The notes under the pieces are model-generated. The model was not told the DNA's origin and did no database searches. It saw only the letters and a list, made by a program, of their open reading frames with translations. Made by a program: the position numbers and the translations under genes. 20,085 nucleotides of DNA, from NCBI GenBank assembly GCA_021817025.1, contig JAKAWF010000031.1, positions 1 through 20,085 of the forward strand, written 5' to 3'. This document shows positions 931-15,097 of this stretch, in pieces; positions within the stretch are counted from its first letter, which is position 1, and every line of letters begins with the position of its first letter. Source of the DNA: a bacterium. GTDB lineage: Bacteria > Chloroflexota > Dormibacteria > UBA8260 > Bog-877.

Positions 931-1323
931 GTGGCTGCGAGCAAGCGCCAGCTGGTCTGCCCCTATGGCTGCCAGCCTGCTCGGTTCGAGCTCCTGGGTG
1001 GGGCGGTGTTCGTCGATGCCCGGGGCTCGTACCTGGAGCACCGGGACAAGCTCGCCTCATTTCGCTGCGCCAGCTGCGGGGCGGTGGCCCTGGATCTGGC
1101 CGCCGCCGCCGCCGCCATGGCGCGGGAGCGAAGGAGCGCGCCAGCCACCACCGTCACCTGCCCCGCCTGCGGGGCGGTCCTGCTCCCGCCGGATGACTAC
1201 GATGCCGGCGCCGAGATGGAGTGCCCCGAGTGCGAGGGTGTCTTCTCACTCGAAGAGGGCAGTCCCCACCTCCTGGGCGGCTTCGGTGAGGGACCGGAAG
1301 AGGTCGATCCCGGGGACCTCTGA
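931..1323 (+). CDS. small protein with two four-Cys zinc sites
   Basis: 130-aa protein with a GTG start, 7 nt after the dihydrouridine synthase stop. Two cysteine quartets are visible: C10 and C14 (CPYGC) with C46 and C49 (CASC), and C77, C80, C98 and C101 (CPAC...CPEC). These fit two zinc-ribbon-like modules, separated by an alanine-rich, probably helical linker (residues 51-66). The C-terminal 20 residues are acidic and glycine-rich. No catalytic motif, signal peptide or membrane segment is seen. I do not recognise a named family. Zinc ribbons of this kind bind nucleic acid or protein, and the neighbour suggests a link to tRNA or translation, but that is inference only. The spacing supports an operon with dus. 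Confidence 0.75.
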   Translation: MAASKRQLVCPYGCQPARFELLGGAVFVDARGSYLEHRDKLASFRCASCGAVALDLAAAAAAMARERRSAPATTVTCPACGAVLLPPDDYDAGAEMECPECEGVFSLEEGSPHLLGGFGEGPEEVDPGDL

Positions 1324-1497: not shown

Positions 1498-2094
1498 ATG
1501 CCAAAGCTGGCCCACAGCACCCGGGCCAGGCGGCGCAGGGTCCTGATCGACGCTGGCTGGAGCTGCCTCGCCCGCACCGGGTGCCGGGATCTCCGGGTCG
1601 ACGACATCTGCCGTGAGGCTGGTGTCAGCAAGGGTGCCTTCTACGGCTACTTCCCCCACAAGCAGACCTTCCTGCTGGCGCTGGTGCAGGCCGACGCGGA
1701 GAGAGTCGAGGCGACGATGCTGAGGCTGGAGGCCGCGCCCATGAGGGCCGGGGAGCGCCTGCGGGCCTTCACCTCCGCCATGTTGGAGCGCGCCCAGGAA
1801 CCCGGCCGGGTGCAGCTGGCCGCCGACATCTGGTCGGGGATGCGGGCTGATGCAACCATGCGCCGGCTCCTGGTGGCAGTCACCGCCCGGAGGCGGGAAC
1901 GGCTCCGCAGTTGGCTGGAAGTGGGCATCGCCGACGGCGAACTGCTGGAAGCTCCCGCCAACGCCCTGGCCTCGCTGGTGCTGGCGCTCGGCGACGGGCT
2001 CACGATGCATGCTGGGCTCGACCCTCAGGCGTTCCGCTGGGACAACATCCGTCGCGCCCTGGACATCCTGCTCTCCGCCCTCCAACCGCCATGA
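1498..2094 (+). CDS. TetR/AcrR family transcriptional regulator
   Basis: 198-aa one-component repressor-type regulator. The N-terminal DNA-binding domain (about residues 9-56) has the classic TetR pattern: a first helix rich in Arg, then VDDICREAGVSKGAFYGYF with the recognition helix and the aromatic YGYF turn, followed by HKQTFLLALV. Residues 60-198 form the helical ligand/dimerisation domain, whose inducer cannot be read from sequence. GAGGG stands just ahead of the ATG at 1498. The stop TGA overlaps the ATG of the ClC gene (ATGA, 2091-2094), so the two are translationally coupled. The regulator therefore probably controls the anion transporter and itself, perhaps through the palindrome at 1484-1495. 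Confidence 0.93.
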   Translation: MPKLAHSTRARRRRVLIDAGWSCLARTGCRDLRVDDICREAGVSKGAFYGYFPHKQTFLLALVQADAERVEATMLRLEAAPMRAGERLRAFTSAMLERAQEPGRVQLAADIWSGMRADATMRRLLVAVTARRRERLRSWLEVGIADGELLEAPANALASLVLALGDGLTMHAGLDPQAFRWDNIRRALDILLSALQPP

Positions 2095-4460
2095 GAGGCC
2101 GGTTGCGGTCGGGGCTGGGCTCACTTGGCCGCCGGCTGAAGCGGGGACTCCGGGGAGGCCTTGTCGGGGCCATCGAGGGAGGAACCTCCACCCGCCTCAG
2201 AGCCGCCCGGCTCTGGAACCGCACAGCCCCCAGACTGCGACGGTCGGCGGCCCGCTGGAAGCGTCAGAGACCCGGGGCGGGCGAGCCACCTGGGGCCGCC
2301 AGCCCGCCCGCCGCTGCGCGGGAGGAGCAGCCCGGGCTGGATCGCGCCGCGCTCACCTGGAGGCGGCCCATCCGGGGCCGGGGATGGCCGGGGTGGCGGA
2401 CCCTTGGCAGCCACCTCGGCTCTCGCATCAGCGAGATGTCCTACGTGGAGAGGTGGCTCGTGCTGGGGCTGGCCATCGGCGTCGTGGCCGGGCTGGGGGC
2501 GGTCCTCTTCTACTCAGCCCTGCAGTTGGGAACCCACCTCTTCCTGGTCGACCTCGCCGGCTACCACATCCCCACCCCGAGCGGCGAGGGCAACGCCGCG
2601 GGGTCGGCAGGCTACGCCCGTCCCTGGGCGATCCCGCTGGTGGTGGGCCTGGGCGGCCTGCTGTCGGGCCTGCTGGTGTTCACCTGGGCCCCAGAGGCCG
2701 AGGGGCACGGCACCGACGCCGCCATCGAGGCCTTCCACCGCAACCCTCGCGGGATCCGCCTGCGGGCGGTGGCGGTCAAGATCGTCGCCTCCGCACTCAC
2801 CATCGGGTCCGGGGGCTCGGGGGGTCGGGAGGGTCCGACCGCCCAGATCAGTGCCGGCTTCGGCTCCCTGCTGGCACGGATTCTCGACCTCTCGCCAGAG
2901 GACGGCCGCCTCGCCGTGGCGGTCGGGATTGGCTCGGGGATCGGGGCGATCTTCAGCGCTCCCCTGGGCGGCGCCGTGCTGGCCGCCGACATCCTCTACC
3001 GGGATGACTTCGAATTCGCCGCTCTGCTACCGGGGCTCGTGGCTTCGATCGTCGCCTTCCTGATCTTCGGAGCCGTTGAGGGATATCAGTCCCTCTTCGC
3101 CGTGGCCGGCGGCTACCACTTCAACGATCCCCTGCAGCTGGTCTGGTTCGCGGTGATCGGCCTGGCTGCGGGTCTGATCGGCCTGCTCTATTCCCGGGGT
3201 TTCTACGGGATGGTGGCATTCAACGCCCGGATTCCGATCAGCCGCAAGCTCAAGCCGGCCCTGGGCGGAGTGCTGGTGGGCGTGATCGCCCTGGGCCTGC
3301 CGGAGGTGCTGGGAACGGGCTACGGCTGGGTCCAGAAGGGGCTTGGCCCGGAACTGCTCCAGATCCCCCTCTACGCCGTGCTGCTGCTGCCGTTCGCCCG
3401 CATCCTGGCCACCTCGCTGTCGATCGGCACCGGCGGCTCCGGCGGCGTGTTCGGACCGGGCATGGTCATCGGCGCCTTCACCGGCGCCGCCGTCTGGCGG
3501 GTGCTGGAGCCGATTGCCCCCGGCATCCCCCATGATCCGGCGGCCTTCGTCATCGTCGGCATGATGGCCTGCTTCGGCAGCATCGCCCGGGCCCCGCTGG
3601 CGGTGATGCTGATGGTGGCGGAGATGACCGGCACCATCTCCTTGCTGGCACCGGCGATGGTGGCCGTGGCTCTGGCCACGTTCGTGGTTCGCCACTTCGA
3701 CGACAGCATCTACCGCAGTCAGCTGCGCACCCGCGCCGACTCGCCGGCCGCTCGCTTCCAGTTCGGTCTGCCGCTTCTGAACACAGTGAAGGTCAGCGCG
3801 GTCGGCCACCAGCCGCGCCTGGTACTGGAGGCGGAGATGCCTCTCAAGACGGCGCTGGCCGCCCTTCGCCAAGCCCAGGTGCCGGGCGCGCCGGTGGTGG
3901 ACGGGCAGGGAATCTATCTGGGCACCGTCTCCACCCGACAGCTGGAGGGCCGGCCGGAGCAGGAGGCGGACACACCGCTCGACCAGTTGCTGGATGCCAC
4001 CGCCCCCACCGTCGCGGGCACGGCCAGGCTCGACTCGGCGCTGGAGTCCATCACCCAAGCCGGCGGCCACTGGGTGACCGTGACAGACGGCGCCCGCCAC
4101 GTGCTGGGTGTGCTCACCTTCGGTGACCTGATCGCGGGCTACCACGCGGCCCTGGACAGCAACATCGGAACCATGGCTCAGGTGAGCGCTCACACCATGG
4201 CATTGGAGGAACGCATGGGTGCCGGTTCGCCTCTGGTCGGCCGACCTCTGCGAGAGCTGGACCTGCCCACGGGCTGCATCGTCGTCACCGTCCTTCGTGG
4301 CGACGACCTAACCTTCCCGAGCGGGGCTACGGTCCTGCAGGTGGGGGACGTCGTGAGCGCGCTCGCCGAGCCCCGCCAGGGCGATCGGATGCGGCACCTC
4401 ATGCGCGGCGACGAGGGCCTTATCGACCCCGCTGTGGAGCGTGGCAGCCAGCTCATGTAG
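2091..4460 (+). CDS. ClC-family chloride channel/antiporter with CBS pair and TrkA-C domain
   Basis: About 789-aa inner-membrane anion transporter. The start at 2091 overlaps the tetR stop (ATGA); ATG 2436 is an alternative that would remove a roughly 115-residue Arg-rich tail. The ClC membrane core spans about residues 120-535. GREGP keeps the gating glutamate (about E247), and TGGSGGVFGPG and the C-terminal RAPLAVMLMVAEMTG are clear. The usual GSGIP selectivity motif reads GHGTD (about 205-209). After FSAPLGG, the two residues aligning with E. coli E202/E203 are Asp-Ile, so the internal proton glutamate appears missing. Two CBS repeats (about 565-690) follow, then a TrkA-C/RCK-C-type domain (about 700-765), both cytosolic and probably nucleotide- or ligand-sensing. 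Family assignment is secure. Channel versus exchanger, and which anion, are open. Confidence 0.93.
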   Translation: MRGRLRSGLGSLGRRLKRGLRGGLVGAIEGGTSTRLRAARLWNRTAPRLRRSAARWKRQRPGAGEPPGAASPPAAAREEQPGLDRAALTWRRPIRGRGWPGWRTLGSHLGSRISEMSYVERWLVLGLAIGVVAGLGAVLFYSALQLGTHLFLVDLAGYHIPTPSGEGNAAGSAGYARPWAIPLVVGLGGLLSGLLVFTWAPEAEGHGTDAAIEAFHRNPRGIRLRAVAVKIVASALTIGSGGSGGREGPTAQISAGFGSLLARILDLSPEDGRLAVAVGIGSGIGAIFSAPLGGAVLAADILYRDDFEFAALLPGLVASIVAFLIFGAVEGYQSLFAVAGGYHFNDPLQLVWFAVIGLAAGLIGLLYSRGFYGMVAFNARIPISRKLKPALGGVLVGVIALGLPEVLGTGYGWVQKGLGPELLQIPLYAVLLLPFARILATSLSIGTGGSGGVFGPGMVIGAFTGAAVWRVLEPIAPGIPHDPAAFVIVGMMACFGSIARAPLAVMLMVAEMTGTISLLAPAMVAVALATFVVRHFDDSIYRSQLRTRADSPAARFQFGLPLLNTVKVSAVGHQPRLVLEAEMPLKTALAALRQAQVPGAPVVDGQGIYLGTVSTRQLEGRPEQEADTPLDQLLDATAPTVAGTARLDSALESITQAGGHWVTVTDGARHVLGVLTFGDLIAGYHAALDSNIGTMAQVSAHTMALEERMGAGSPLVGRPLRELDLPTGCIVVTVLRGDDLTFPSGATVLQVGDVVSALAEPRQGDRMRHLMRGDEGLIDPAVERGSQLM

Positions 4461-4520
4461 CCCGGCCCACGCCGCAGCTGGGGACCCCCATGCCCCTCGG
4501 GGCGCGGCGGGGTGGTGGGC

Positions 4521-6482
4521 TCAGCTCGCTGTGGTCGAGCCCCGCAGCAGCGCCGCCCCGATCTCCTCTTGGGTCTCGGGCCGCCCCTGGAATGGACACT
4601 TGGCGGGCTCCGCCTCGGACCTCGAATCCGCCCCGGCCGCGTCCGCTCCGCCGTTGCGGGCACCGTTGTGGCCGGGGGTCGTTCCCTGCTCGTGCGGCCG
4701 CAGCCGCGCCACGGTCGGCGACGCCTCGCGCGGGACGTACCTGCCCCCGCTGCCACCCGAGGCGTAGGTGTGCAGGGCCAGGTCGACCTCGCCCGCGTCA
4801 GCGGGAAGATCGTCGAATCCCGCGGCTGGAATCGGGCTCAGCTCCGGGGTCCCCGGCCCATCCTCGAGCGGGGTGCGATGGGGTTGAGCGTGGGCGGACC
4901 GGCCCAGTTCTGGTTCGATCACGGGAGCCGCCACCTGCAGGGTGACCACTGACAGCCGTCTGGTCCGGGCCACCTTCTCCACCTTGGCCTTGATCCGGCG
5001 CCGGAGGTAGCCGGCCGGCATCTCGTGGAGCAGGTTGCGAGCCTCCGTCGACCACCCGATCTTGCGATTGTCGAAGGTGCGCTCCTCGGTGACCTCGCCT
5101 TCGCCCTCGGCGTCTCTCAGCATGCTCTGGTGATCGACCTTGGAGAACTGCTCCTGCGCGCCGCCACAGACCGGGCAGGCGACCGGCCTCACGCCCCGGG
5201 CCGTGTAGCCGCACTCACGGCAGATGTGAACCTCGGTCTCGGTCATGACCGCGGCCCGAGCCTCGCGCTGGATCCCGATCGCGGAGGAGGCCTCCGGGGG
5301 CAGGATGTCGCCCAGGGCCGCGGTGACCAGGTCGTGGGAGACGATCGAGTGGCCCCGCTCCATCGCCCAGCGCAGGACCGCGGTCCGCGCCAGTCCCTGC
5401 GCCGAGCAGGGGATTCGATCCAGCACCTCGGTCGCCTCCGGGGTCCACACCACCGAGGCGGCCCCGCGCATGTCGATGGGAGGCACGTAGGTGCGCGAGG
5501 ACAGCATCACGCTGCAGGGAGCGAGCCGGAGCAGGTTCTCGCTGTTGCCGCCGATGTCCATGTCCTGATCCGAGTGGACCCCGATCCGACCACAGACCAG
5601 CAGGGAGGCGTCCCGGTCGCGGACATAGCGCAGCACCTGCTCGAAGGCCTTGCCGTCCAGCAGCGTTATGGGGAGGTCGTACCCCTGCGCCTGCGCCACC
5701 TCCTTGGCCACCTTGAGGTGGGAGGAGTAGATCATCGCCAGCCCGGTGTCGATGATCTCCTCGTGAAGGGCCTCCTGCTCCTTGAAGCGGAAGACCTTGC
5801 TGGCCTCGTCGGAGAGGACTCCCACGATGCCGTTGAAGAGCACGTAGTGAAGGTAGGGGTCGTAGACGGAGACCGCCTCCACCGGCAGGTCCAGCGCCCG
5901 GCCCATCTCGAGCGCCGAGCGCAAACCGGCAAACGACTGGGAGGAGCCGTCGATCGCCACCACGATGGGGCCGGAGAGCGGGTCGCGGCCCTCCCGATGG
6001 CGGACCACGATGGTGTCCTGATGAGCTCGCCGGACCACCCGGTCCACGCAGGTCCCGAGCTGGGTCTCCTTGACCTGTCCCAGGCCATAGGCGCCCATCA
6101 ACACCAGGTCGTACTGCGACTCCTCGATGTCCTTGACCAGGATCTCCCAGTTCTTGCCGTCGAAGGTCTTGGGAGTGAACGGGATGCCCTCCTCCAGGCA
6201 GCGCCGCTGGGCGACCTCGAGGTAGGAGTCGGAGATCAGTCCGAGCCCGGTCGCGATCAGGCTGTTGTGGATCTTGCGCTGGCGCTCCAGCTCCGCCTCG
6301 TCCTGGTACTCCTCGGGCAGGGTGTACTCCATCTGCTTGAAGCGGTAGTCGTGCATCCGCGCGGCGTACACGTGACTGCCCACGATCTCCGCCCCGGTGG
6401 CCCTGGCCAGCCGGATCGCCACCTCGGCGGCGGCGCTGGAGTGGTCGGAGTTGTCCAGCGGCAGATAGAGCTTGCGATACAT
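4521..6482 (-). CDS. tandem universal stress protein fused to PCP-reductase-type domains and a zinc ribbon
   Basis: 653-aa soluble multidomain protein. Domains in order: USP 1 (1-162) with an intact ATP-binding signature G-2x-G-9x-G-T at G130, G133, G143 and T144; USP 2 (171-330) with a degenerate version (G298, G301, G311, then Gly-Asn instead of Ser/Thr); a PCP_red-type helical domain (345-395, WTPEATEVLDRIP...ARTAVLRWAMERG) like the C-terminal piece of light-independent protochlorophyllide reductase subunit B; a four-Cys zinc ribbon (C421, C424, C436, C439); a second PCP_red-like unit (476-525, WSTEARNLLHEMP); and a low-complexity tail to 653. Start chosen at MYRKLYLPLD, where the USP fold begins. 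It lies 87 bp downstream of argH on the same strand. The ATP binding and domain calls rest on motif matching; the overall role is unknown, possibly redox or stress sensing. Confidence 0.85.
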   Translation of the reverse strand: MYRKLYLPLDNSDHSSAAAEVAIRLARATGAEIVGSHVYAARMHDYRFKQMEYTLPEEYQDEAELERQRKIHNSLIATGLGLISDSYLEVAQRRCLEEGIPFTPKTFDGKNWEILVKDIEESQYDLVLMGAYGLGQVKETQLGTCVDRVVRRAHQDTIVVRHREGRDPLSGPIVVAIDGSSQSFAGLRSALEMGRALDLPVEAVSVYDPYLHYVLFNGIVGVLSDEASKVFRFKEQEALHEEIIDTGLAMIYSSHLKVAKEVAQAQGYDLPITLLDGKAFEQVLRYVRDRDASLLVCGRIGVHSDQDMDIGGNSENLLRLAPCSVMLSSRTYVPPIDMRGAASVVWTPEATEVLDRIPCSAQGLARTAVLRWAMERGHSIVSHDLVTAALGDILPPEASSAIGIQREARAAVMTETEVHICRECGYTARGVRPVACPVCGGAQEQFSKVDHQSMLRDAEGEGEVTEERTFDNRKIGWSTEARNLLHEMPAGYLRRRIKAKVEKVARTRRLSVVTLQVAAPVIEPELGRSAHAQPHRTPLEDGPGTPELSPIPAAGFDDLPADAGEVDLALHTYASGGSGGRYVPREASPTVARLRPHEQGTTPGHNGARNGGADAAGADSRSEAEPAKCPFQGRPETQEEIGAALLRGSTTAS

Positions 6483-6569
6483 CTCAGCTGACTTGGTAGA
6501 CCTGCACCTTGCCTCTGATGCTAGCAAGTCGGCCCTCTGCGAGGCCGGTGGAAGCCCCCGCCAGCCAGT
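6483..6569 (-). promoter_or_regulatory. argH-usp gap with possible usp promoter
   Basis: Gap of 87 bp, the only sizeable break in the leftward gene series. Read on the - strand, it has a GGCCTC...GAGGGCC imperfect hairpin (6-bp stem with one bulge) soon after the argH stop, then TAGCAT, a TANNNT-type -10 candidate, about 40 nt ahead of the usp ATG. No U-tract follows the hairpin and no good -35 is visible. The stress protein could have its own promoter or read through from the arg operon. Confidence 0.2.
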
Positions 6570-8015
6570 TCACCGACCCTGGCGCCTGATCCAGGCCCGG
6601 CTTTGCCTGAGGCGGCGGGCTGCCTCCGTCAGGGCCAGCTCGGTCGCCTTGGGACCGGGGGCTCCCGGCTGCTCCCGGCGCCCCAGGGACGCCCGCGCAT
6701 CGAACACCCCAGCCGCCACGGGATCGGCAGGCAGGCCCAGCTCCCGCCACGCACCGGCCAGCAGCACGTCCAGGCCCTGGCCCAGCTCCTCCGCCCGCCG
6801 CACGGCCCGGCCCACCAGCTCATGGGCCTGCCGGAAGGCCACGCCCTGGGCCACCAGGTGCTCGGCGAGGTCGGTCGCCAGCAGCTCGGGATCCTGAGCC
6901 GCCAACCCCATGCGCTCCCGGTTGAAGAGGACCTCCCCCAGGAGCCCGGTGAGGGCCAGCAGACTGGCCTCGGTCGCGGCCACCGCCGCAAAGAGGTGGT
7001 GCTTGTCCTCCTGGAGGTCGCGGTTGTAGCTGAGCGGCAACCCCTTGAGGACCGTGAGCAGTCCCACCAGTGAGCTGATCGGCCTGGCCGCCCGGCCGCG
7101 GACCAGCTCCAGCACGTCGGGGTTCTTCTTCTGGGGCATCAGGCTGGAGCCGGTGGCCCAGCTGTCGGGCAGGCTGACGAAGGCGAACTCCCTGGTGTTC
7201 CAGAGGATCAGGTCCTCGGCCAGCCGGGAGAGGTGAACGCCGATCAGGGCGCAGCAGAAGACGATCTCGACTGCGAAATCGCGATCCGACACCGCGTCCA
7301 GGCTGTTCCCGGTGAGGCCCCCAAAGCCGAGCTCGGCGGCCACCCAGGAGCGGTCTATCGCCAGGGTGGTCCCGGCCAGCGCCCCCGCCCCGAGGGGCGA
7401 TCTGTCGAGTCGGCGCTGGCACTCCCGCAACCGCTCCAGGTCCCGCTCCAGCATCTCGAAATAGGCGAGCAGGTGGTGGGCCAGATGGACCGGCTGGGCC
7501 CGCTGGAGGTGGGTGTACCCCGGCAGCAGCGTCCGCCGCTCCCGGCGCGCCCGAGCCAGCAGCACGGCCTGCGCTCCGGCGCCGGCCGAGACCAGCCGCA
7601 GACAGGCCTGCTTGGCCCAGAGCCGCAGGTCCAAGGCCACCTGGTCGTTGCGGCTGCGCCCGGTGTGGAGCCGTCGCGCCGGCTCCCCCAGCAGCTCCGT
7701 GAGCCGGCGTTCCACCGCCATGTGGATGTCCTCATCGGAGCTGAGAAACTTGAAGCCGCCGGAGCTGATCTCGGCGGCGACGGTGGTCAGCCCGGCCAGC
7801 AGGAGGTCCTTGGTCGCCTCGTCCAGGAGGCCGGCCCGGAACAGCGCCATCGCGTGCGCCCTGGAGCCGGCCAGATCTTGAGGCGCCAGTTCCCGGTCCT
7901 CCTGCAAGGAGCTGGTGTACTCCTCCAGGGTGGGGTTGGTACCCCCGTGGAGGCGACCGCTCCAGGCCTTGGCGAAGCCTGGCTGGGTGGGGACGGGCTC
8001 AGGGCGTCTTGGCAT
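6570..8015 (-). CDS. argH: argininosuccinate lyase
   Basis: Last step of arginine synthesis: splits argininosuccinate into arginine and fumarate; cytosolic homotetramer. The 481-aa length is slightly above the usual 450-470. Family landmarks are all present: the N-terminal WSGRLHGGTNP (usually WGGRF), HTGRSRND at 117-124, the fumarase-superfamily signature GSSLMPQKKNPD at 289-300 containing the catalytic serine loop, and LPLSYNRDLQEDK after it. The start at 8015 (MPRRPEP) overlaps the end of argG by 17 bp. The frame stays open further upstream inside argG, but that extension is Arg/Ser-rich and unlike the family. Last gene of the tight arg operon. Confidence 0.96.
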   Translation of the reverse strand: MPRRPEPVPTQPGFAKAWSGRLHGGTNPTLEEYTSSLQEDRELAPQDLAGSRAHAMALFRAGLLDEATKDLLLAGLTTVAAEISSGGFKFLSSDEDIHMAVERRLTELLGEPARRLHTGRSRNDQVALDLRLWAKQACLRLVSAGAGAQAVLLARARRERRTLLPGYTHLQRAQPVHLAHHLLAYFEMLERDLERLRECQRRLDRSPLGAGALAGTTLAIDRSWVAAELGFGGLTGNSLDAVSDRDFAVEIVFCCALIGVHLSRLAEDLILWNTREFAFVSLPDSWATGSSLMPQKKNPDVLELVRGRAARPISSLVGLLTVLKGLPLSYNRDLQEDKHHLFAAVAATEASLLALTGLLGEVLFNRERMGLAAQDPELLATDLAEHLVAQGVAFRQAHELVGRAVRRAEELGQGLDVLLAGAWRELGLPADPVAAGVFDARASLGRREQPGAPGPKATELALTEAARRLRQSRAWIRRQGR

Positions 8016-9300
8016 CGGCCAGGTCGTCCGCCGCCGGCTTGCCCTGGGCGATCCCGCGGGGAGCGGCCTGCAGCAGCGAGCCGGAATCCTCCCAGAGATT
8101 TCCCTGGATCGAAGCCTGGGTGCGCAGCGGCAGCCCGAAGATGTTGAGGAAGCCCTCCGCCGACTGGTGCCGGAACTGGTCCTCCGCGCGTTCATAGGTG
8201 GCCAGCTCGCGGCGGTAGAGGGAGCTGGGGCTGCTCCGGCCCAGCAGCCGGATCGCGCCCTGGCGCAGCTGCAGGCGGACGTCGCCGGTGACGAAGTGCT
8301 GGGTGGAGCCCACGAAGGCGGCCAGGCTCTGGCGCAGCGCCGAAAACCAGAGCCCGTCGTAGGTCAGCTGGGCCCACTCATCGGCCACCAGCCGCTTGAA
8401 GCGCAGCACGTCGCGGGAGAGGGTCAGCGACTCCACCGCGCGGTGGGCGAAGTCGAGCACCACCGCCGCCGGCGCCTCGTAGAGCTCGCGGGACTTGATC
8501 CCCACCAGCCGATCCTCGACATGGTCTATCCGACCCACGCCCTGGGCGCCCGCCAGCAGGCTGAGCCGGGTCACCAGCTCGACCGGGGAGAGTTCCTCCC
8601 CGTCCAGCCGGGTGGGTGTCCCCTGCTCGAAGTGCAGCTCCACGACCAAGCCCGCGGCCGGCGCCCGCTCCGGGGCCACCGTCCACGCGAAGGCGTCCTC
8701 CGGAGGCTCGACCCAAGGATCCTCCAGAATCCCGGTCTCCACGCTGCGACCCCAGAGGTTGGCGTCGATGCTGTAGGGGCTCTCCTTGGTGGCCTTGACC
8801 GGCAGGCCGTGCTCGGCGGCGTAGGCGATCTCCTCGCTGCGTCCCATCTGCCAGTCTCGCACCGGGGCGACCACCTCCAGGGCGGGGGCCAGCGCCCCCA
8901 CCGCCACGTCGAAGCGAACCTGGTCGTTGCCCTTGGCGGTGCAGCCGTGGGCGACGGCGGCGGCCCCGGCCTCGCGGGCCACCTCCACCAGAAGCCGGGC
9001 GATCAGGGGGCGCCCCAGGGCGGTGGCGAGCGGGTAGACGCCCTGGTAGAGCGCCCCCGCCTGCAGCGACGGCCAGACGAAGTTGGTGAGGAAGAGCTCC
9101 TTGGCGTCGACCACATGGGCGGCCACCGCCCCCGCCTGCAGCGCCCGCCGCTGCAGCTCCTCGGCGTCCTTGGTCTCGCCCAGGTCGGCCGACAGGGTGA
9201 TCACCTCAAAGCCGCGCTGGTGGGTGAGCCAGTGGACTGCGACCGTGGTGTCGAGGCCCCCGGAGAAGGCCAGGACGCAGCGGGGCCGATGCTCAGACAT
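7999..9300 (-). CDS. argG: argininosuccinate synthase
   Basis: ATP-dependent condensation of citrulline and aspartate to argininosuccinate. The 433-aa protein starts with the PP-loop AFSGGLDTTVAVHWL (SGGLDTT at 13-19) and has the family signature AHGCTAKGNDQVRF at 117-130, followed by SPYSIDANLWGRSVE and substrate-binding segments of the multifunctional C-terminal domain. Three in-frame Met codons are possible (9321, 9309, 9300). I chose 9300 because GAGG lies 9 nt upstream and it gives the usual distance to the PP-loop. It overlaps the argR stop by 8 bp and its own end overlaps argH by 17 bp. It needs citrulline, so ornithine carbamoyltransferase must be encoded elsewhere. Confidence 0.96.
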   Translation of the reverse strand: MSEHRPRCVLAFSGGLDTTVAVHWLTHQRGFEVITLSADLGETKDAEELQRRALQAGAVAAHVVDAKELFLTNFVWPSLQAGALYQGVYPLATALGRPLIARLLVEVAREAGAAAVAHGCTAKGNDQVRFDVAVGALAPALEVVAPVRDWQMGRSEEIAYAAEHGLPVKATKESPYSIDANLWGRSVETGILEDPWVEPPEDAFAWTVAPERAPAAGLVVELHFEQGTPTRLDGEELSPVELVTRLSLLAGAQGVGRIDHVEDRLVGIKSRELYEAPAAVVLDFAHRAVESLTLSRDVLRFKRLVADEWAQLTYDGLWFSALRQSLAAFVGSTQHFVTGDVRLQLRQGAIRLLGRSSPSSLYRRELATYERAEDQFRHQSAEGFLNIFGLPLRTQASIQGNLWEDSGSLLQAAPRGIAQGKPAADDLADAKTP

Positions 9301-9823
9301 GGGTACCATCCTCTTCGCCAAGGGTGTCGGCCGGCAACCACCTGGCCCACTCGGGCCCGCCGCCAGGCGCCCACTGCCGGACCTGCTCCAGCCGATGCAC
9401 CACCTGCCGGGCCGCGCCGGCGGAGCGGGCCTGGATGAAGACGGTGTCGTCGCCGGCCACCGTGCCCGCCACCTGATCCAGCCTCATGGCGTCCACCGCC
9501 GACGCCACCACGGGAGCCGCCCCCGCCGAGGTGTGCAGCACCACCATCGCCGCCACCAGATCCACCCGGGCCAACTGGGTGCGCAGGATCTGAGCCAGCC
9601 TTCCCTCCTCGTCCTCAGGCGGCGGCAGGTAGCGCCGGCCACCCGTACCCTCCACTCGGGCCACTCCCAGCTGGCGCAGGTCCCGGCTGATGGTGGCCTG
9701 GTCAGCCTCGATGCGCAGCCGGTGGAGCTCCTCCGCGAGCTGGGCCTGGGTCTCGACCGGGTGACTGCGCAGGACCGCCACTATGGCCGCCTGGCGCGCG
9801 CGCTTCAGCTCGACCGCGGTCAC
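9293..9823 (-). CDS. argR: arginine repressor ArgR/AhrC
   Basis: Hexameric arginine-sensing regulator of arginine genes. The 176 aa comprise an N-terminal winged helix-turn-helix (about 5-70; QAQLAEELHRLRI...DQATISRDLRQLG carries the SRD recognition helix) and a C-terminal oligomerisation/arginine-binding domain (about 78-148) with the conserved GTVAGDDTVFI stretch, whose Asp pair (D125, D126) contacts arginine in known ArgR. A tail of about 26 residues rich in Gly, Pro, Trp and Glu extends beyond the usual length of about 150. The GTG start overlaps the argD stop (GTGA, 9820-9823) and its stop overlaps argG by 8 bp, so the repressor is made from the operon it probably controls. Confidence 0.95.
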   Translation of the reverse strand: MTAVELKRARQAAIVAVLRSHPVETQAQLAEELHRLRIEADQATISRDLRQLGVARVEGTGGRRYLPPPEDEEGRLAQILRTQLARVDLVAAMVVLHTSAGAAPVVASAVDAMRLDQVAGTVAGDDTVFIQARSAGAARQVVHRLEQVRQWAPGGGPEWARWLPADTLGEEDGTHV

Positions 9824-11034
9824 GGCGGGTTGGCTCCGGCCGCTCGCTCCAGGGCGCGTCCCAGGGCCGAGACAGCCAGTTCGATCTCATCGTCGGAGAT
9901 AACCAGCGGGGGTGCCAGGCGAATCGTCTCCTCCCCGATCGGGTTGACCAGGATTCCCTCCTCCAGCGCCAACCGCCCCACCTCGGCTGCGATCGGCGAG
10001 GAGAGGCCGACCCCGAGCAGGAGCCCCCTGCCCCTGGTCTCCGCGACCGGCAGCCCCTGTTGCCGCAGGCCCAGAATCCCCTCTTTGAACTGCTCTCCGG
10101 CCCCGGCCGCGCGCTGGCACAGCCGGTCGCGCTCGAGCACCCGCAGCACGGCCAGGCCGGCGGCAGCCGCGACCGGGTTGCCACCGAAGGTGCTGCCGTG
10201 GTCGCCGGCCTCGAATACATCGGCGCGCCTGGCCACCAGCACCGCGCCCAGAGGCAGGCCGCCGCCCACCCCCTTGGCGACGGTCATCAGGTCCGGGACC
10301 GCTCCCGAGTGCTGGTGGGCCCACATCCTCCCGGTGCGGCCCATCCCACTCTGAACCTCGTCCAGGATCAGGAGCGCGTGGTGCTGATCGCAGAGCTCCC
10401 GCAGCCGGCGCAGGTAGGAGTCCTCCAGGACATGGACCCCACTCTCCCCCTGGATGGGCTCGGCCAGCACCGCCACCGCGGGCCTGTCGGGGTCGGCGAG
10501 GGCGCGTTCGACCGCGTCCAGGTCGCCCCGCGGCAGCTGCCGGAACCCCTCCGGGAGGGGCCGGAAGGGATCCCCGTAGTGGGCGTTGCCGGTGGCGGCC
10601 AGGGTGGCCAGGGTGCGGCCGTGGAAGGCTCCCTCCAGGGTGAGGATGGTGTGAGCGCCCTGGCGGTGGAGCTGGCCCCATTTGCGAGCCACCTTGATGG
10701 CGGCCTCGTTGGCCTCGGCCCCACTGTTGCAGAGGAACACCCGGCTGGGGAAGGCGGTCGCCGAGAGCCGCTCCGCCAGCTCCACCTGGGGCTCGGTGTA
10801 GTACAGGTTGCTGGTGTGCATCAAGCGCCCCATCTGGGCCGTGGCCGCCGCCACCACCTCGGCCTGGCAGTGGCCCAGGAGGTTGACCGCGATCCCGCCC
10901 ACCAGGTCCAGCAGCCGCCGGCCGTCATCGGTCTCCACGAAGCAGCCGTCGCCCCGCACCAGGGTCACCGGGAGTCTCCGGTAGGTCCCACAGAGGGCCC
11001 TCGCCTCGCGCTCCACCAGGGTCGCCGGCGCCAC
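9820..11034 (-). CDS. argD: acetylornithine aminotransferase
   Basis: PLP-dependent class III aminotransferase: N-acetylglutamate semialdehyde plus glutamate gives N-acetylornithine plus 2-oxoglutarate. The 404-aa length is normal. Visible landmarks: LVGGIAVNLLGHC near the N-terminus, the cofactor-phosphate loop NSGAEANEAAIKVAR, the aromatic-His EGAFHGRT, EPIQGESGV, the LILDEVQSGMGRTG segment with the PLP-pyridine Asp, and the Schiff-base lysine K254 in TVAKGVGGG, followed by GSTFGGNPVA. The GTG start lies 1 nt after the argB stop, so coupling is likely. It could also serve lysine synthesis (succinyldiaminopimelate aminotransferase activity is common in ArgD). Confidence 0.96.
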   Translation of the reverse strand: MAPATLVEREARALCGTYRRLPVTLVRGDGCFVETDDGRRLLDLVGGIAVNLLGHCQAEVVAAATAQMGRLMHTSNLYYTEPQVELAERLSATAFPSRVFLCNSGAEANEAAIKVARKWGQLHRQGAHTILTLEGAFHGRTLATLAATGNAHYGDPFRPLPEGFRQLPRGDLDAVERALADPDRPAVAVLAEPIQGESGVHVLEDSYLRRLRELCDQHHALLILDEVQSGMGRTGRMWAHQHSGAVPDLMTVAKGVGGGLPLGAVLVARRADVFEAGDHGSTFGGNPVAAAAGLAVLRVLERDRLCQRAAGAGEQFKEGILGLRQQGLPVAETRGRGLLLGVGLSSPIAAEVGRLALEEGILVNPIGEETIRLAPPLVISDDEIELAVSALGRALERAAGANPP

Positions 11035-11035
11035 C

Positions 11036-11938
11036 TCAGGTGGCCCCCGCGGGCGCTGGATCGATCATGGTGCCGACGCCGGACTCGGTCAGCAGTTCCA
11101 GCAGGATCGAGTGCGGCTCGCGGCCGTCGATGATGTGCACCGTGACCCCCGCGCGGGCGGCGTCGCAGGCTGCCTTCAGCTTGGGGATCATCCCCTCCCG
11201 GGCCGTTCCGTCCGCCAGCAGCTGCTCCGCCTGGCCCAGGGTGACCTCACTGAGAAGCTCGCCCTGAGGCCCTTGGACCCCCACCACATCGGTCAGGATG
11301 AGCAGCTTGGCGGCCTTCAGCTCAGCCGCCAGAGCGGCCGCCACCGTGTCCGCGTTGACGTTGTAGCTGAGCCCGTCGTAGCCCAGCCCCACCGAGGCCA
11401 CCACCGGGATCACGCCCCGCTCCGTGAGCGCCAGGACGGGCTCCGGGTTGACCTCCTCGACCGCTCCCACCAGGCCCAGGTCCTCGCCGTCGGGCCCCAG
11501 CTGGCGCCGCACCAGAAGGGTCGGACCGTCCTCGCCGGAGAGGCCCGTGGCACGGCCGCCCAGCCGGTGGATGGCGGTCACCAGCTCGGGCGTGATCTTG
11601 CCGGTCAGGACCATCTTGGCGACCTCCATGGTGCGCTCGTCGGTGACCCGCAGACCACCCACGAAGCGGGTCTCCAGGCCCAGCGCTCCCGCCATGGCGG
11701 TGATCTCCTTGCCCCCTCCGTGGACCAGCACCGGCCGCAGCCCGACAAAGCGCAGCAGGACCAGGTCCTGCAGCACCGTGTCGCGGGCCTGGGAGTCGTC
11801 CATGGCGGCGCCGCCCAGCTTCACCACCAGGAGCTGGCCGTGAAACCGCCGGATGTAGGGGAGCGCCTCGACCAGGATGCGGGCCCGCAGCGCCGGGCTG
11901 ACGGCGGCCAGGGTGGGGTCAGGTGGAGTAGTCGGCAT
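11036..11938 (-). CDS. argB: acetylglutamate kinase, arginine-sensitive type
   Basis: Phosphorylates N-acetylglutamate, usually the committed and regulated step of the pathway. The 300 aa show the amino-acid-kinase fold: VVKLGGAAM (K40 in the ATP-phosphate strand), LVHGGGKEI, the acetylglutamate-binding RFVGGLRVTDERTMEV, SYNVNADTVAAALA, and LILTDVVGV. It has an N-terminal extension with a helix ending in ALPYIRRFHG (25-34). In structurally known enzymes this kinked helix makes the hexamer and marks the arginine-inhibited class; the short E. coli-type enzyme lacks it. Feedback inhibition by arginine is therefore inferred. The ATG start lies 20 bp inside argJ; the stop is 1 nt before argD. Confidence 0.96.
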   Translation of the reverse strand: MPTTPPDPTLAAVSPALRARILVEALPYIRRFHGQLLVVKLGGAAMDDSQARDTVLQDLVLLRFVGLRPVLVHGGGKEITAMAGALGLETRFVGGLRVTDERTMEVAKMVLTGKITPELVTAIHRLGGRATGLSGEDGPTLLVRRQLGPDGEDLGLVGAVEEVNPEPVLALTERGVIPVVASVGLGYDGLSYNVNADTVAAALAAELKAAKLLILTDVVGVQGPQGELLSEVTLGQAEQLLADGTAREGMIPKLKAACDAARAGVTVHIIDGREPHSILLELLTESGVGTMIDPAPAGAT

Positions 11939-13145
11939 TGATCCTCACATAGTCGGGGCCGAGGTCACAGCCGAGGGCGGTGGCCTCGGCTTCCCCGACT
12001 CCAAGGTTGATTTCGATGGCGATCCGGGGTTCGCTGAGCCTGGGGACCAGCCGCTCCAGCGAGGCCTCCACCGCCTGCCCCAGCGCGAACATCTCGTGGC
12101 CCTGGATAAGGAGGCGGCAGCGGTCGAGCGCGAATTCGGCCCCGGAGCGTCCCACCGCCGCCAGGATGCGCCCCCAATTGGGGTCCCCGCCGTGAATCGC
12201 GGTCTTGACCAAGGGCGAGGTGGTCACGGTCCGGGCCGCGGCCAGCGCCTGGGCGTGGTCCAGCGCTCCCCTGACCGTGACCGAGAAGGTCCTGGTGGCC
12301 CCCTCGCCGTCCGCCACCACCTGCTCCGCCAGGGAGGCCAGCACCTGTCCCAGGCCCGCCGCGAAGAGGGCGGCGGGCTCGGAGCCGGCCTCCAGCAGGG
12401 GGCCCCCGGCCGCGCCGTTGGCCAGTACCAGGCAGCAGTCGTTGGTGCTGGTGTCGCCGTCCACGCTGATGACGTTGAAGCTCTCGCGCACCGCCTCTCT
12501 CAGCAGCTGGCGCAACAGCTCCGGCGCCAGCTGAGCGTCGGTGGTGACGAAGGCCAGCAGGGTCGCCATGTCGGGGTGGATCATCCCGGACCCCTTGGCC
12601 ATCCCCCCGATGCGATGAGTCACCCCGCCCACCTCGAAGGTCGTCCCGGCCTGCTTGGGCCGGGTGTCGGTGGTCATGATCGCCTCGGCGGCAGCCGCTC
12701 CTCCCAGCTCGGTGGCGGCGCCGGCGGCAGCCGCGATCGCGGGCAGGACCCGCTCCATCGGCATGATCCTTCCGATCACGCCAGTGGAGGCGACCAGCAC
12801 CTCGCCGGGGGCGCACTCCGCGGCGTCCGAGGCGGCCTGGGCCATGCGCAGGGCGTCCCCCAGGCCGCGCGCCCCGGTGCAGGCATTGGCGTTGCCGCTG
12901 TTAACCACCACCGCCCTCGCCACCCCCCGCTTGAGGTGGAGCTGGCTGATCACGACCGGGGCGGCCTTGACCGCATTGCGGGTGAAGACCCCGGCCGCCG
13001 CGGCCGGCCGGTCACTGACCAGCAGGGCCACGTCGGCGCGCGCCGAGCCGTCCCCGCGCACATCGGCACTGGCGGTACCGGCGCGAAACCCGGCTGGTTC
13101 GGTGACGCCGGTCAGGCGTCCCTGGGTCACCGCGCTCACGGCCAT
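11919..13145 (-). CDS. argJ: glutamate N-acetyltransferase / ornithine acetyltransferase
   Basis: Transfers acetyl from N-acetylornithine to glutamate, closing the cyclic arginine pathway; bifunctional members also use acetyl-CoA. The 408-aa Ntn-type precursor is autocleaved before the nucleophile Thr195 in KGSGMIHPDMATLLAF (cleavage Ala194/Thr195) to alpha and beta chains. Other hallmarks: VFTRNAVKAAPV, VVNSGNANACTG, ASTGVIGRIMPM (oxyanion region), SVDGDTSTNDC and the C-terminal NADYST. The ATG start overlaps the argC stop by 10 bp. No argA or argE is seen nearby, which fits the ArgJ recycling route. Whether it is mono- or bifunctional cannot be judged from sequence. Confidence 0.96.
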   Translation of the reverse strand: MAVSAVTQGRLTGVTEPAGFRAGTASADVRGDGSARADVALLVSDRPAAAAGVFTRNAVKAAPVVISQLHLKRGVARAVVVNSGNANACTGARGLGDALRMAQAASDAAECAPGEVLVASTGVIGRIMPMERVLPAIAAAAGAATELGGAAAAEAIMTTDTRPKQAGTTFEVGGVTHRIGGMAKGSGMIHPDMATLLAFVTTDAQLAPELLRQLLREAVRESFNVISVDGDTSTNDCCLVLANGAAGGPLLEAGSEPAALFAAGLGQVLASLAEQVVADGEGATRTFSVTVRGALDHAQALAAARTVTTSPLVKTAIHGGDPNWGRILAAVGRSGAEFALDRCRLLIQGHEMFALGQAVEASLERLVPRLSEPRIAIEINLGVGEAEATALGCDLGPDYVRINADYST

Positions 13146-14173
13146 TGCGGAGCCCCCTCCAGTCCGGCCGTGGGCGCCATCCCGAAGCGCTGGTTGAGCA
13201 CCTGCAGCGCCTGCGAGGAGGCGCCCCGGCCGAGATTGTCAAGCACCGCGCACGCCACCAGGTGGGGTCCTTGGATCTGCAGGCTGATGAAGCAGAGGTT
13301 GGTGTGGGTGGCCAGCTTGCTGGGTGCGGCCTGGTCCACCAGGGAGACGAACGGGGTCTCCTGGTAGCGCCGCCGGTACGCCTGGAGAAGCTGCTCCAGG
13401 CCGACCCCCGGCAGCGGGCGCAGGTAGCAGGTGGCGACTATCCCCCTGGTCATGGGAGTCAGATGGGGGACGAAGGTGACCCCGAAGTCGCCGCCCGCAA
13501 GCTGGGTGAGCGCCTGCTCCATCTCGGGGCGGTGGCGGTGGCCGGTGACCGAGTAGGCGCGCACCGACTCGTTCAGCTCCGAGAAGAGGTGGCCAGAGTC
13601 GGCCTGGCGGCCAGCCCCGCTGGTCCCGGTCTTGGCGTCCACCACCACATCGGGCTCGACCAGGCCGGACATGGCCGCCGGACCACAGGCCAGAATCGCG
13701 GCGGTGGAGAAGCAGCCGGGCAGGGCCAGCAGGGAGGCCCCTGAGATGGCCTCCGGTTGCAGCTCGGGCATGGCCAGGACCGCCTGCGCGAGAAGCTCGG
13801 GGGCTGGATGGTCCTGCCCGTACCAGGTCCGGTAGGCTGCCGCATCCCGGAGCCTGAAGTCGGCCGCGACATCGATCACGACCACCCCCTTGCCGAGCCA
13901 CCCCCGCGCCGCCCGGGCGGCCTCACCGGGAGGCAGGGCGCTGATCACCACGTCGCAGCCGACGCCATCGACTTCGGCTGTGAGCTCCAGCGGGCAGGTG
14001 GACCCGGGGTAGACATCCTGATGGCGCCGCCCGGCCTGGGAGCGCGATCCGACCTGGACCAGATCCACCCCCGGATGCCGCTGCAACAGCTCCACGCATC
14101 CCGCCCCGGCATACCCGGTGGCTCCGGCCACCGCCACCCGCAGCTTGGCTCCGACCCCGGGAGTACCTGTCAC
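13136..14173 (-). CDS. argC: N-acetyl-gamma-glutamyl-phosphate reductase
   Basis: NADPH-dependent reduction of N-acetylglutamyl phosphate to the semialdehyde. The 345 aa comprise a Rossmann domain with VAGATGYAGAGCVELL (GATGYAG at 17-23), VVISALPPGEA and DVAADFRLRD, then the catalytic cysteine C154 in LPGCFSTAAIL (the usual motif is GCYPT), and the C-terminal dimerisation domain with VTGHRHRPEMEQ and FVPHLTPMTRGI. GTG at 14173 is chosen because the fold begins about 10 residues later and no in-frame ATG fits; the ATG a few nt upstream is out of frame. There is no clear ribosome-binding site, so a very short leader is likely. First gene of the operon, behind the palindrome at 14183-14200. Confidence 0.95.
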   Translation of the reverse strand: MTGTPGVGAKLRVAVAGATGYAGAGCVELLQRHPGVDLVQVGSRSQAGRRHQDVYPGSTCPLELTAEVDGVGCDVVISALPPGEAARAARGWLGKGVVVIDVAADFRLRDAAAYRTWYGQDHPAPELLAQAVLAMPELQPEAISGASLLALPGCFSTAAILACGPAAMSGLVEPDVVVDAKTGTSGAGRQADSGHLFSELNESVRAYSVTGHRHRPEMEQALTQLAGGDFGVTFVPHLTPMTRGIVATCYLRPLPGVGLEQLLQAYRRRYQETPFVSLVDQAAPSKLATHTNLCFISLQIQGPHLVACAVLDNLGRGASSQALQVLNQRFGMAPTAGLEGAPQWP

Positions 14174-14236
14174 GGGGCCATGTTTGCATATTTATGCGGT
14201 CTCGTGCATCGGCAGGTCTCAGCGGTGGGCCTCATA
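14174..14236. promoter_or_regulatory. divergent argC/GNAT promoter region with ARG-box-like palindrome
   Basis: AT-rich island in a GC-rich region. GCATATTTATGC (14186-14197) is an inverted repeat with 5-bp arms and a TT centre. Set as an 18-mer (14183-14200) it reads TGCAT-ATTT-ATGCG in its core, matching the layout of ArgR operators (TGAAT-wwww-ATTCA) with altered arm bases. On the - strand the same bases supply an A/T-rich -10 candidate (CATAAAT or TAAATA) about 16-20 nt ahead of the argC GTG, so a bound ArgR would block argC. On the + strand CATATT could be a -10 for the GNAT gene. Operator identity is inference. Confidence 0.5.
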
Positions 14237-15097
14237 ATGCCTACCGTGCTGAGGCGGGCGTCGTTGCGTCAACCGCGGGCTCGCCAGCTGGGGGCGGCCG
14301 ACTCGGCGGCCGTGGGCGCCTGCCTGGAGCTCCATCCTCTGGAGACGGTGTACTTGCGCAGCGAGATCCGCCATGGAGCTCTCCGCCAGGGGGCCGTGGT
14401 CGGGGTCGAGCACCCCGACGACCGCCGCCTCCACGCGGTCGCCCTGCGGGGCCCGCTGGTGGTCCCGTGGGCTCCTGCCGAGCGCGACCTGGTGACACTG
14501 GCGGGAAACCTGCGCGGGCAGGTTCACTTCATGCAGCTCATCGTCGGGCCCCGGGACCAGGTGGCCGGGTTGCAGCGCCTGCTCGCTCCCCATCTGCCCC
14601 CGGTGCGGCTGCTGCGCGCGGAGCAGCCCCACTACGCGGTGGACCTGGACGGCCTGGCGCTGGTCGGCCCGGAGCCGCCGCTGCGGCTGGCGACCGTCGC
14701 CGACCTGGAGCAGGCGGTGGCGGCGGGCGCGGCCATGCATCTCGAGGAGGTCGGCTTCGATCCGCTCCTTTCCGACCCCGTCGGCTTCCGGCAGCGGGTG
14801 CTGACCCTGATCCGTCGTGGCTGGGTCCACCTCTGGATGGAGGATGGCGAGATCGTCTTCAAGGCCGAGCGCTCGGCCGTCACCGCCGAGGCGATCCAGC
14901 TCCAGGGGGTGTGGACCAACCCCCGGTTCCGAGGCCAGGGGCTGGGAACGCTGGCGATGGCCCGCCTCTGCCAGCAGCTGCTGGCCGAGACAGAGGCCGT
15001 GACCCTCTTCGTCAACGACTTCAACGCCGTCGCCATCCACGTCTACGAGCGGATCGGCTTCCGGCGCATCGGCACCATGCGCTCGGTGCTCTTCTGA
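14237..15097 (+). CDS. GNAT family N-acetyltransferase with DUF4081-like N-terminal domain
   Basis: 286-aa two-domain protein. Residues about 10-140 resemble the DUF4081 domain of actinobacterial GNATs, with HFMQLIVGPRDQVAGL and RLLRAEQPHYAVDL as the recognisable core. Residues about 149-286 are a GCN5-type acetyltransferase: QGVWTNPRFRGQGLGTLAMA contains the acetyl-CoA pyrophosphate loop RGQGLG (232-237), and the end FVNDFNAVAIHVYERIGF is the typical motif B. Substrate unknown. The ATG at 14237 is preferred; in-frame GTG 14204 and ATG 14180 would add 11 and 19 residues. The gene diverges from argC across the ARG-box-like site, which allows shared control, but a role as glutamate acetyltransferase is only speculation. 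Confidence 0.88.
   Translation: MPTVLRRASLRQPRARQLGAADSAAVGACLELHPLETVYLRSEIRHGALRQGAVVGVEHPDDRRLHAVALRGPLVVPWAPAERDLVTLAGNLRGQVHFMQLIVGPRDQVAGLQRLLAPHLPPVRLLRAEQPHYAVDLDGLALVGPEPPLRLATVADLEQAVAAGAAMHLEEVGFDPLLSDPVGFRQRVLTLIRRGWVHLWMEDGEIVFKAERSAVTAEAIQLQGVWTNPRFRGQGLGTLAMARLCQQLLAETEAVTLFVNDFNAVAIHVYERIGFRRIGTMRSVLF

Follow-up and report, generated by a model that had tools for sequence, protein, structure and literature searches.

A USP-PCP_red fusion protein that probably helps to build or control an unusual CydA-type oxygen reductase

Universal stress proteins (USPs) are held to be regulators. Proteins in which USP is combined with an LI-POR_suB-like_C domain have been reported from Methanomicrobiaceae, as a noted architecture only in the accessible part of that source (PMC12159084). 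Bd-like enzymes related to those discussed here are proposed terminal oxidases of nitrite oxidisers, and in Nitrospirales the OR-N5 CydAA' sits directly downstream of alternative complex III, according to the accessible parts of the two sources (PMC6606698 and PMC12342949 for the former, PMC12342949 for the latter). The domains of the protein described here, and their combination, are thus already known from databases and, as far as the accessible text goes, once in print (PMC12159084), while for its link to predicted non-quinol CydA proteins a search of the open-licence literature found no published account.

Here we describe a gene on the minus strand of a contig from a soil bacterium of the Dormibacteria (Chloroflexota), of which the whole analysed stretch, 20,085 nucleotides long, is referred to as the window. 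A sequence-only reading had proposed a USP fused to two PCP_red-type units around a CxxC ribbon and gave no strand; the plus-strand frame across 4521-6482 is interrupted by a stop. The features are as follows.

4521..6482, minus strand: USP-USP-PCP_red-ribbon-PCP_red protein of 653 amino acids (ATG at 6482, stop at 4521; open reading frame, Pfam and relatives)
6000..6482, minus strand: USP domain 1, residues 1-161 (Pfam Usp best stretch; tandem USP fold)
6051..6095, minus strand: USP1 ATP motif G-2x-G-9x-G-T, residues 130-144, intact
6192..6362, minus strand: USP1 helical insert, residues 41-97, with invariant H44, R47, F48, Q50, E52, R69 and H72
5493..5972, minus strand: USP domain 2, approximately residues 171-330, borders approximate, ATP motif altered (GG replaces GS/GT)
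5688..5852, minus strand: USP2 helical insert, residues 211-265, with invariant H212, F233, Q236, H240, E242 and D245
5325..5447, minus strand: PCP_red domain 1, residues 346-386 (Pfam, own profile)
5145..5231, minus strand: rubredoxin-like ribbon C421-x2-C424-x11-C436-x2-C439, below the Pfam cut-off
4929..5054, minus strand: PCP_red domain 2, residues 477-518 (Pfam, own profile)
4524..4892, minus strand: tail, residues 531-653, mostly low-confidence in the model and faster-evolving; most relatives have a third PCP_red here
6570..8195, minus strand: argH (argininosuccinate lyase), upstream of the gene on the same strand after a gap of approximately 87 bp

Pfam found Usp (PF00582) in two stretches (6e-36, 124.5 bits), and the tandem USP fold of the predicted model matches 3cis, 3ab8 and UspE (Foldseek), which bears out the two USP domains read from the letters. 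The first ATP motif, GAYGLGQVKETQLGT at residue 130, is an intact G-2x-G-9x-G(S/T), and in the second, GRIGVHSDQDMDIGG at residue 298, the final S/T is changed to G. The earlier description of an intact and a degenerate motif therefore holds for the window protein; across the aligned proteins the first is intact in 80 of 84 and the second in 34 of 84. The units placed earlier at 345-395 and 476-525 are PCP_red domains (PF08369, 4.6e-16, 59 bits against a cut-off of 32.5, two stretches); our custom profile puts them at 346-386 and 477-518, with scores that arise partly by construction as its seeds include the window's domains. The ribbon proposed at 421-439 is likewise present, with C421, C424, C436 and C439 each at least 90% conserved in 49 aligned proteins. 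Its match to RUBY_RBDX (PF21349, residues 420-446) reaches 22 bits against a cut-off of 26.5, and PF21349 is annotated in several relatives (precomputed domain column). In the helical inserts, H44 and H72 of USP1 and H212 and H240 of USP2 are all found in 84 of 84 proteins. When the window is compared with five members of its clade, dN is well below dS in the USP, PCP1 and PCP2 parts, which indicates purifying selection there; the tail beyond residue 530 shows this less strongly.

The PCP_red region has the fold of the BchB C-terminus, a structural comparison that the sequence-only reading had suggested. Matches from E 0.027 up in the search linking PCP_red to BchB (a designed protein, histones H4 and others) were taken as chance. 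The first 50 matches of the whole model in Foldseek were USP-like proteins and cation-chloride cotransporters, with no PCP_red chain among them. The predicted PCP_red fold, from a model of residues 335-530, also resembles the AAA+ lid of RuvB and of the magnesium chelatase ATPase subunit, a likeness that probably reflects a common arrangement.

An argH-family open reading frame is the tiled frame just before the gene in 10 of 10 loci having it, among the best 80 of 95 loci plus the window and with the window included. In the window, argC-argJ-argB-argD-argR-argG-argH follow in this order at 6570-14173 on the minus strand (translations, with Pfam for argD, argG and argH), and a GNAT acetyltransferase with DUF4081 lies beside them (14219-15097, plus strand). 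A ClC-type chloride channel with CBS and TrkA_C domains (1911-4460, plus strand) converges on the USP-PCP_red gene, and a small protein at 931-1323, plus strand, has several CxxC pairs and weak zinc-ribbon matches. We found no tRNA or Rfam match in the window and, within 4400-6700, no sigma-70-type promoter-like site, which says little for such an organism; the one terminator-like site there, on the plus strand against 0.5 expected, says equally little.

We found that the gene belongs to a large, uncharacterised family, with 5003 relatives at E<=1e-3 among 7997 scored candidates of a database search; database names of the listed relatives, where there are any, are 'universal stress protein' or similar. 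The closest among the matches listed, P0002, is 84% identical over 100% of the length, and Usp and PCP_red are both present in 119 of the 120 relatives listed (precomputed column), the exception, P0035, being partial. These two observations exclude an assembly artefact joining two genes, which the sequence-only reading had named as a way in which it could be wrong. The best 80 of 95 confirmed GTDB loci, which with the window make the set of 81 used below, span Dormiibacterota, Acidobacteria, Rhodothermales, Entotheonella, Methylomirabilota, Myxococcota and others by record title. Three PCP_red copies were found in 62 of these 81, two in 17 and one in 2, with some counts lowered by contig ends; the window protein has two, and the family ranges from one to five clear copies per chain. 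The CxxC...CxxC ribbon is present in 79 of 79 aligned proteins longer than 520 amino acids. A separate PCP_red-only protein (f35) is read divergently just before the gene in five Dormibacterota-like loci, and is fused to the gene's C-terminus in P0040, P0083, G270/L108 and G224/L109, giving five clear PCP_red per chain; f35 and the fused C-terminal parts are 44-59% identical over 171-244 residues.

Other architectures were seen in passing. In L118 (489-3733, a Myxococcota sample genome) a USP protein has five PCP_red domains, and two more lie in an overlapping downstream frame. Frames of approximately 320-335 amino acids that have a single PCP_red close to the N-terminus and lack a USP match form a further architecture in Chloroflexota and Myxococcota samples (L112 4022-5014, L113 4691-5665, L122 2962-3960, L126 2700-3668).

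Open reading frames were called in the best 80 of 95 loci and in the window and grouped into families by BLASTP; the families were then counted up to 8 kb on each side, with one representative of each of the first six families domain-checked in Pfam. A CydA-like/cytochrome c cluster lies near the gene in 53 of the 81 loci (87 of 89 frames on the same strand), followed by a di-heme cytochrome c with an EB_dh (ethylbenzene-dehydrogenase-like) domain in 46 (48 of 49), an Mrp/NBP35-type ATPase in 43 (42 of 43), a small ribbon-PCP_red protein in 35 (34 of 35), a radical-SAM/SPASM protein in 32 (31 of 32), a further cytochrome c in 25 and, in 22, an iron-sulfur protein that we read as ActB of alternative complex III and in which Pfam finds 4Fe-4S domains only. 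These oxidase-type neighbours are found outside the window clade. The survey of architecture and neighbours that the sequence-only reading had suggested thus places an oxidase cluster beside the gene in other lineages. In L017, L018 and L020 the gene is followed directly by CydA, then by Rieske and cytochrome b and then by a second CydA-like gene. The complete genome of Sulfidibacter corallicola M133 (L053) has the gene beside a CydA-like gene to which a di-heme cytochrome c part is fused. We make no claim of a tandem CydAA' in the non-Dormibacterota loci listed: wherever the second member of the cluster is a protein of its own, it is smaller, 6 of 8 such loci show CxxCH motifs in it, and the L019 copy is a cytochrome c (Pfam). 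In 13 loci a protein of approximately 121 amino acids immediately precedes the gene; the L034 copy (7611-7976) has no Pfam or NCBIfam match.

We next consider the CydA-like proteins themselves. For those of at least 380 amino acids, aligned to E. coli CydA, we looked at the GRQPW motif and at positions 19, 186, 393, K183, K252 and E257 of the E. coli protein, which we take to be the relevant sites. The GRQPW quinol loop is found in 0 of 54; His19 is kept in 45 of 54, His186 in 54 of 54 and Met393 in 1 of 54, and K183, K252 and E257 are replaced in the listed proteins. Since the quinol loop is missing and the His ligand positions are kept, these partners are, judged by alignment, predicted non-quinol CydAs.

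We searched 684 genomes of four groups, named from the loci used as centres, with PF08369 and CydA profiles. The gene is present in 54 of 57 CydA-positive genomes versus 1 of 627 CydA-negative ones, in a sample of related and often fragmentary genomes, with CydA profiles (A1 and A2) built from gene-linked CydAs and Fisher p-values that ignore relatedness. With profile A1 the counted CydAs score at least 333 bits and the next matches at most 93.2, except for G483, a contig-end fragment at 50.7 bits that lies below the best canonical matches and is 67% identical to a clustered CydA over a short match; with profile A2 they score at least 110 bits versus 42.5 for the next, G306, which was not counted. 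A gene-positive call rests on the length of the PCP_red frame, and on fetched sequence where that was unclear. Thirty-two PCP_red-positive genomes were counted as negative for both gene and CydA, 15 after checking in fetched sequence (G070, G225, G239, G306, G351, G380, G396, G408, G413, G423, G443, G458, G525, G532, G556) and 17 by score and frame length (G138, G164, G200, G212, G247, G261, G272, G280, G304, G308, G318, G326, G334, G348, G353, G519, G567).

The pattern is similar in each group. In Acidobacteriota, 12 of 149 genomes have CydA (at least 333 bits; next 88), and the same 12 carry the gene. In Rhodothermia it is 20 of 146 (at least 1028 bits; next 87), and the same 20 are the only PCP_red-positive genomes; the frame is full-length in 18, and G673 and G684, with PCP_red only in frames of 84-166 and 87-412 amino acids, were counted as gene-negative on frame length. 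In Chloroflexota taken broadly, the window's relatives among them, CydA is found in 19 of 201 genomes (at least 110 bits), and 18 of these have the gene; the remaining one, G359, has a USP-PCP_red only of the sister-group (archaeal) type and was counted as gene-negative. In Myxococcota, CydA is found in 6 of 188 genomes, once as a contig-end fragment, and all six have the gene. The sole gene-positive, CydA-negative genome, G034, is also from Myxococcota, and its contig begins inside the neighbouring cytochrome c. Contig ends truncate the genes of G517, G483 and G234.

Could the gene encode an ordinary stress protein that merely hitch-hikes with the oxidase in a shared cluster? Clusters can be inherited as blocks, and gene and CydA do share a contig in 29 of 30 positive Acidobacteriota and Rhodothermia genomes. 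However, the same pattern recurs in four groups, and the two are both retained, on separate contigs, in 5 of 6 positive Myxococcota genomes, a number that fragmentary assemblies may inflate, and in the window clade, where CydA is present in 10 of 10 genomes and always on another contig than the gene. The window clade is the cleanest test of the link, as the gene there follows argH and CydA is retained elsewhere. We regard hitch-hiking as unlikely. Our data indicate that the gene probably helps to build or control this unusual oxygen reductase, since its close relatives are nearly confined to bacteria that carry the CydA-type enzyme.

A more direct part in the enzyme would be that of a peripheral cytosolic subunit, either of the oxidase or of its supercomplex with complex III or alternative complex III. 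The near one-to-one co-occurrence with CydA fits this, as does a position among cytochromes c, CydA and, in 22 of the 81 loci (best 80 of 95 plus the window), the ActB-like protein; yet tandem USP proteins are known to be soluble, and in the window clade the gene lies away from the oxidase locus, which makes a subunit quite unlikely.

We tentatively favour the reading that the protein is a cytosolic ATP-binding accessory or maturation factor dedicated to the bd-like oxygen reductase without a quinol loop, and that it would probably handle a tetrapyrrole. Three things point this way: the almost one-to-one association with CydA, a scaffold predicted to be cytosolic and to bind ATP, and a domain seen repeatedly on tetrapyrrole enzymes (BchB, and radical-SAM proteins nearest to NirJ2 and AhbD). 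The tandem USP pair would bind ATP and serve as a switch or dimer platform, and the ribbon may be a metal or electron-transfer site. As the same domain is found in a chlorophyll-pathway reductase, the PCP_red domains may grip a tetrapyrrole or a heme protein during assembly, and the factor would act on CydA. Against maturation, no Cys or His is common to all of 15 aligned PCP_red domains, although His378 of PCP_red domain 1 is present in 79 of 84 proteins, and G359 has CydA with a gene of the sister-group type only.

Use in bacteriochlorophyll synthesis was rejected, as BchB over the cut-off is found in 0 of 42 carrier genomes; the BchB model TIGR01278 gives the window protein 35.3 against a cut-off of 490, with model positions 458-507 only as its best stretch, and G012 has one longer nitrogenase-like match, outside the PCP_red part. 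The earlier interpretation is therefore partly supported as a whole: its non-photosynthetic use of PCP_red stands, while the link to an oxidase lay beyond what the window could reveal.

The domain is also carried by neighbours. With the custom profile we found PCP_red in 33 ribbon proteins, 29 radical-SAM proteins and five f35 proteins; the other tiled neighbour families of the best 80 of 95 loci plus the window had none. Two radical-SAM proteins have NirJ2 (350 bits), which we take to be a heme d1 model, and AhbD heme b synthase (303 bits) as their best NCBIfam matches, both under cut-offs of 500. USP-PCP_red, ribbon-PCP_red and the NirJ2/AhbD-like radical-SAM-PCP_red protein might work together in a dedicated pathway for making, carrying or inserting the heme, perhaps of chlorin type, of quinol-independent bd-like reductases, with PCP_red as a general tetrapyrrole module. 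We consider so extended a pathway unlikely. A NirJ2/AhbD-like protein was found in 24 of 42 carrier genomes at E<=1e-40 and is missing in 18, namely G024 and 17 with Dormibacterota-like loci that include the window's 10 nearest, so the heme-modification pathway is not common to all. Since none of these 17 has the protein, the window's organism probably works without such a partner, which also counts against maturation.

A regulator or sensor is a close rival of the maturation factor and fits almost as well: the USP pair would read ATP or redox state and control expression or activity of the oxidase branch, PCP_red would make protein contacts and the ribbon would sense oxygen or redox. The general view of USPs as regulators and the ribbon's weak resemblance to the rubredoxin domain of rubrerythrin are in its favour. 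Four UspA proteins of Nitrospira marina are reported to increase at low oxygen and to lie beside operons, electron transport among them (PMC8115632); none of the four is known to have PCP_red. On the other hand, Pfam finds no DNA-binding or kinase domain in the window protein, and a regulator leaves the recurrence of PCP_red on the ribbon and radical-SAM neighbours unexplained. Co-retention on different contigs fits either reading.

Short relatives bear on this choice. A search with a short relative found USP-USP-PCP_red proteins (the named ones of 400-486 amino acids) in Methanoculleus, Methanobacterium, Promethearchaeota and Thorarchaeota, and also lists USP-PCP_red proteins named from Methanomicrobiales and Anaerolineae. 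To our knowledge, an oxidase of this type is not expected in methanogens or Asgard archaea. These relatives, as a sister group, count against maturation and are better accommodated by a regulator. They make it unlikely that heme delivery to CydA is the ancestral role, and weaken the idea that the whole family is strictly tied to the oxidase. In a tree of 38 chosen sequences, built on residues 1-400 and midpoint-rooted solely for display, a branch with support 100/99 sets off the long form within a group (100/100) that also holds five CydA-linked short forms; the archaeal and Anaerolineae short forms fall in a separate group, and L120 and S102 are long-branched. The separate group indicates that the architecture predates the association with the oxidase or reaches beyond it; what goes with the oxidase is the long form that carries the ribbon, together with the short forms closest to it.

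Should this family prove to be an obligate partner of the quinol-independent bd-like reductases, it would offer a testable handle on their building or control. PCP_red would then also have a functional context outside phototrophs; a search of the open-licence literature on PCP_red and PF08369 yielded almost only unrelated papers.

Compared with known systems, the non-quinol CydA (OR-C/OR-N) and alternative complex III clusters are alike in having CydA without the quinol loop and, in 22 of our 81 loci (best 80 of 95 plus the window), an ActB-like protein; they differ in that no USP-PCP_red gene is named in the accessible part of their description (PMC12342949). The Methanomicrobiaceae proteins share the domain combination, as far as the accessible text describes them (PMC12159084), and the short relative P0166 of Methanoculleus differs in having no ribbon region, in ending after one PCP_red (by eye) and in its separate tree group. 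Asr4154 of Nostoc (2l09) is a stand-alone PCP_red, a 62-residue chain without USP. The rubredoxin domain of rubrerythrin and nigerythrin is matched by the window ribbon below the Pfam cut-off, and Pfam finds no rubrerythrin ferritin-like part. Relative to BchB (2kru, 2ynm), the window protein is without the nitrogenase-like body and has several PCP_red copies per chain. With the tandem USPs TTHA0350 (3ab8), Rv2623 (3cis) and UspE (5cb0) it shares the tandem fold and the intact USP1 ATP motif, to which it adds a long, highly conserved helical insert in each USP and the fused PCP_red and ribbon region.
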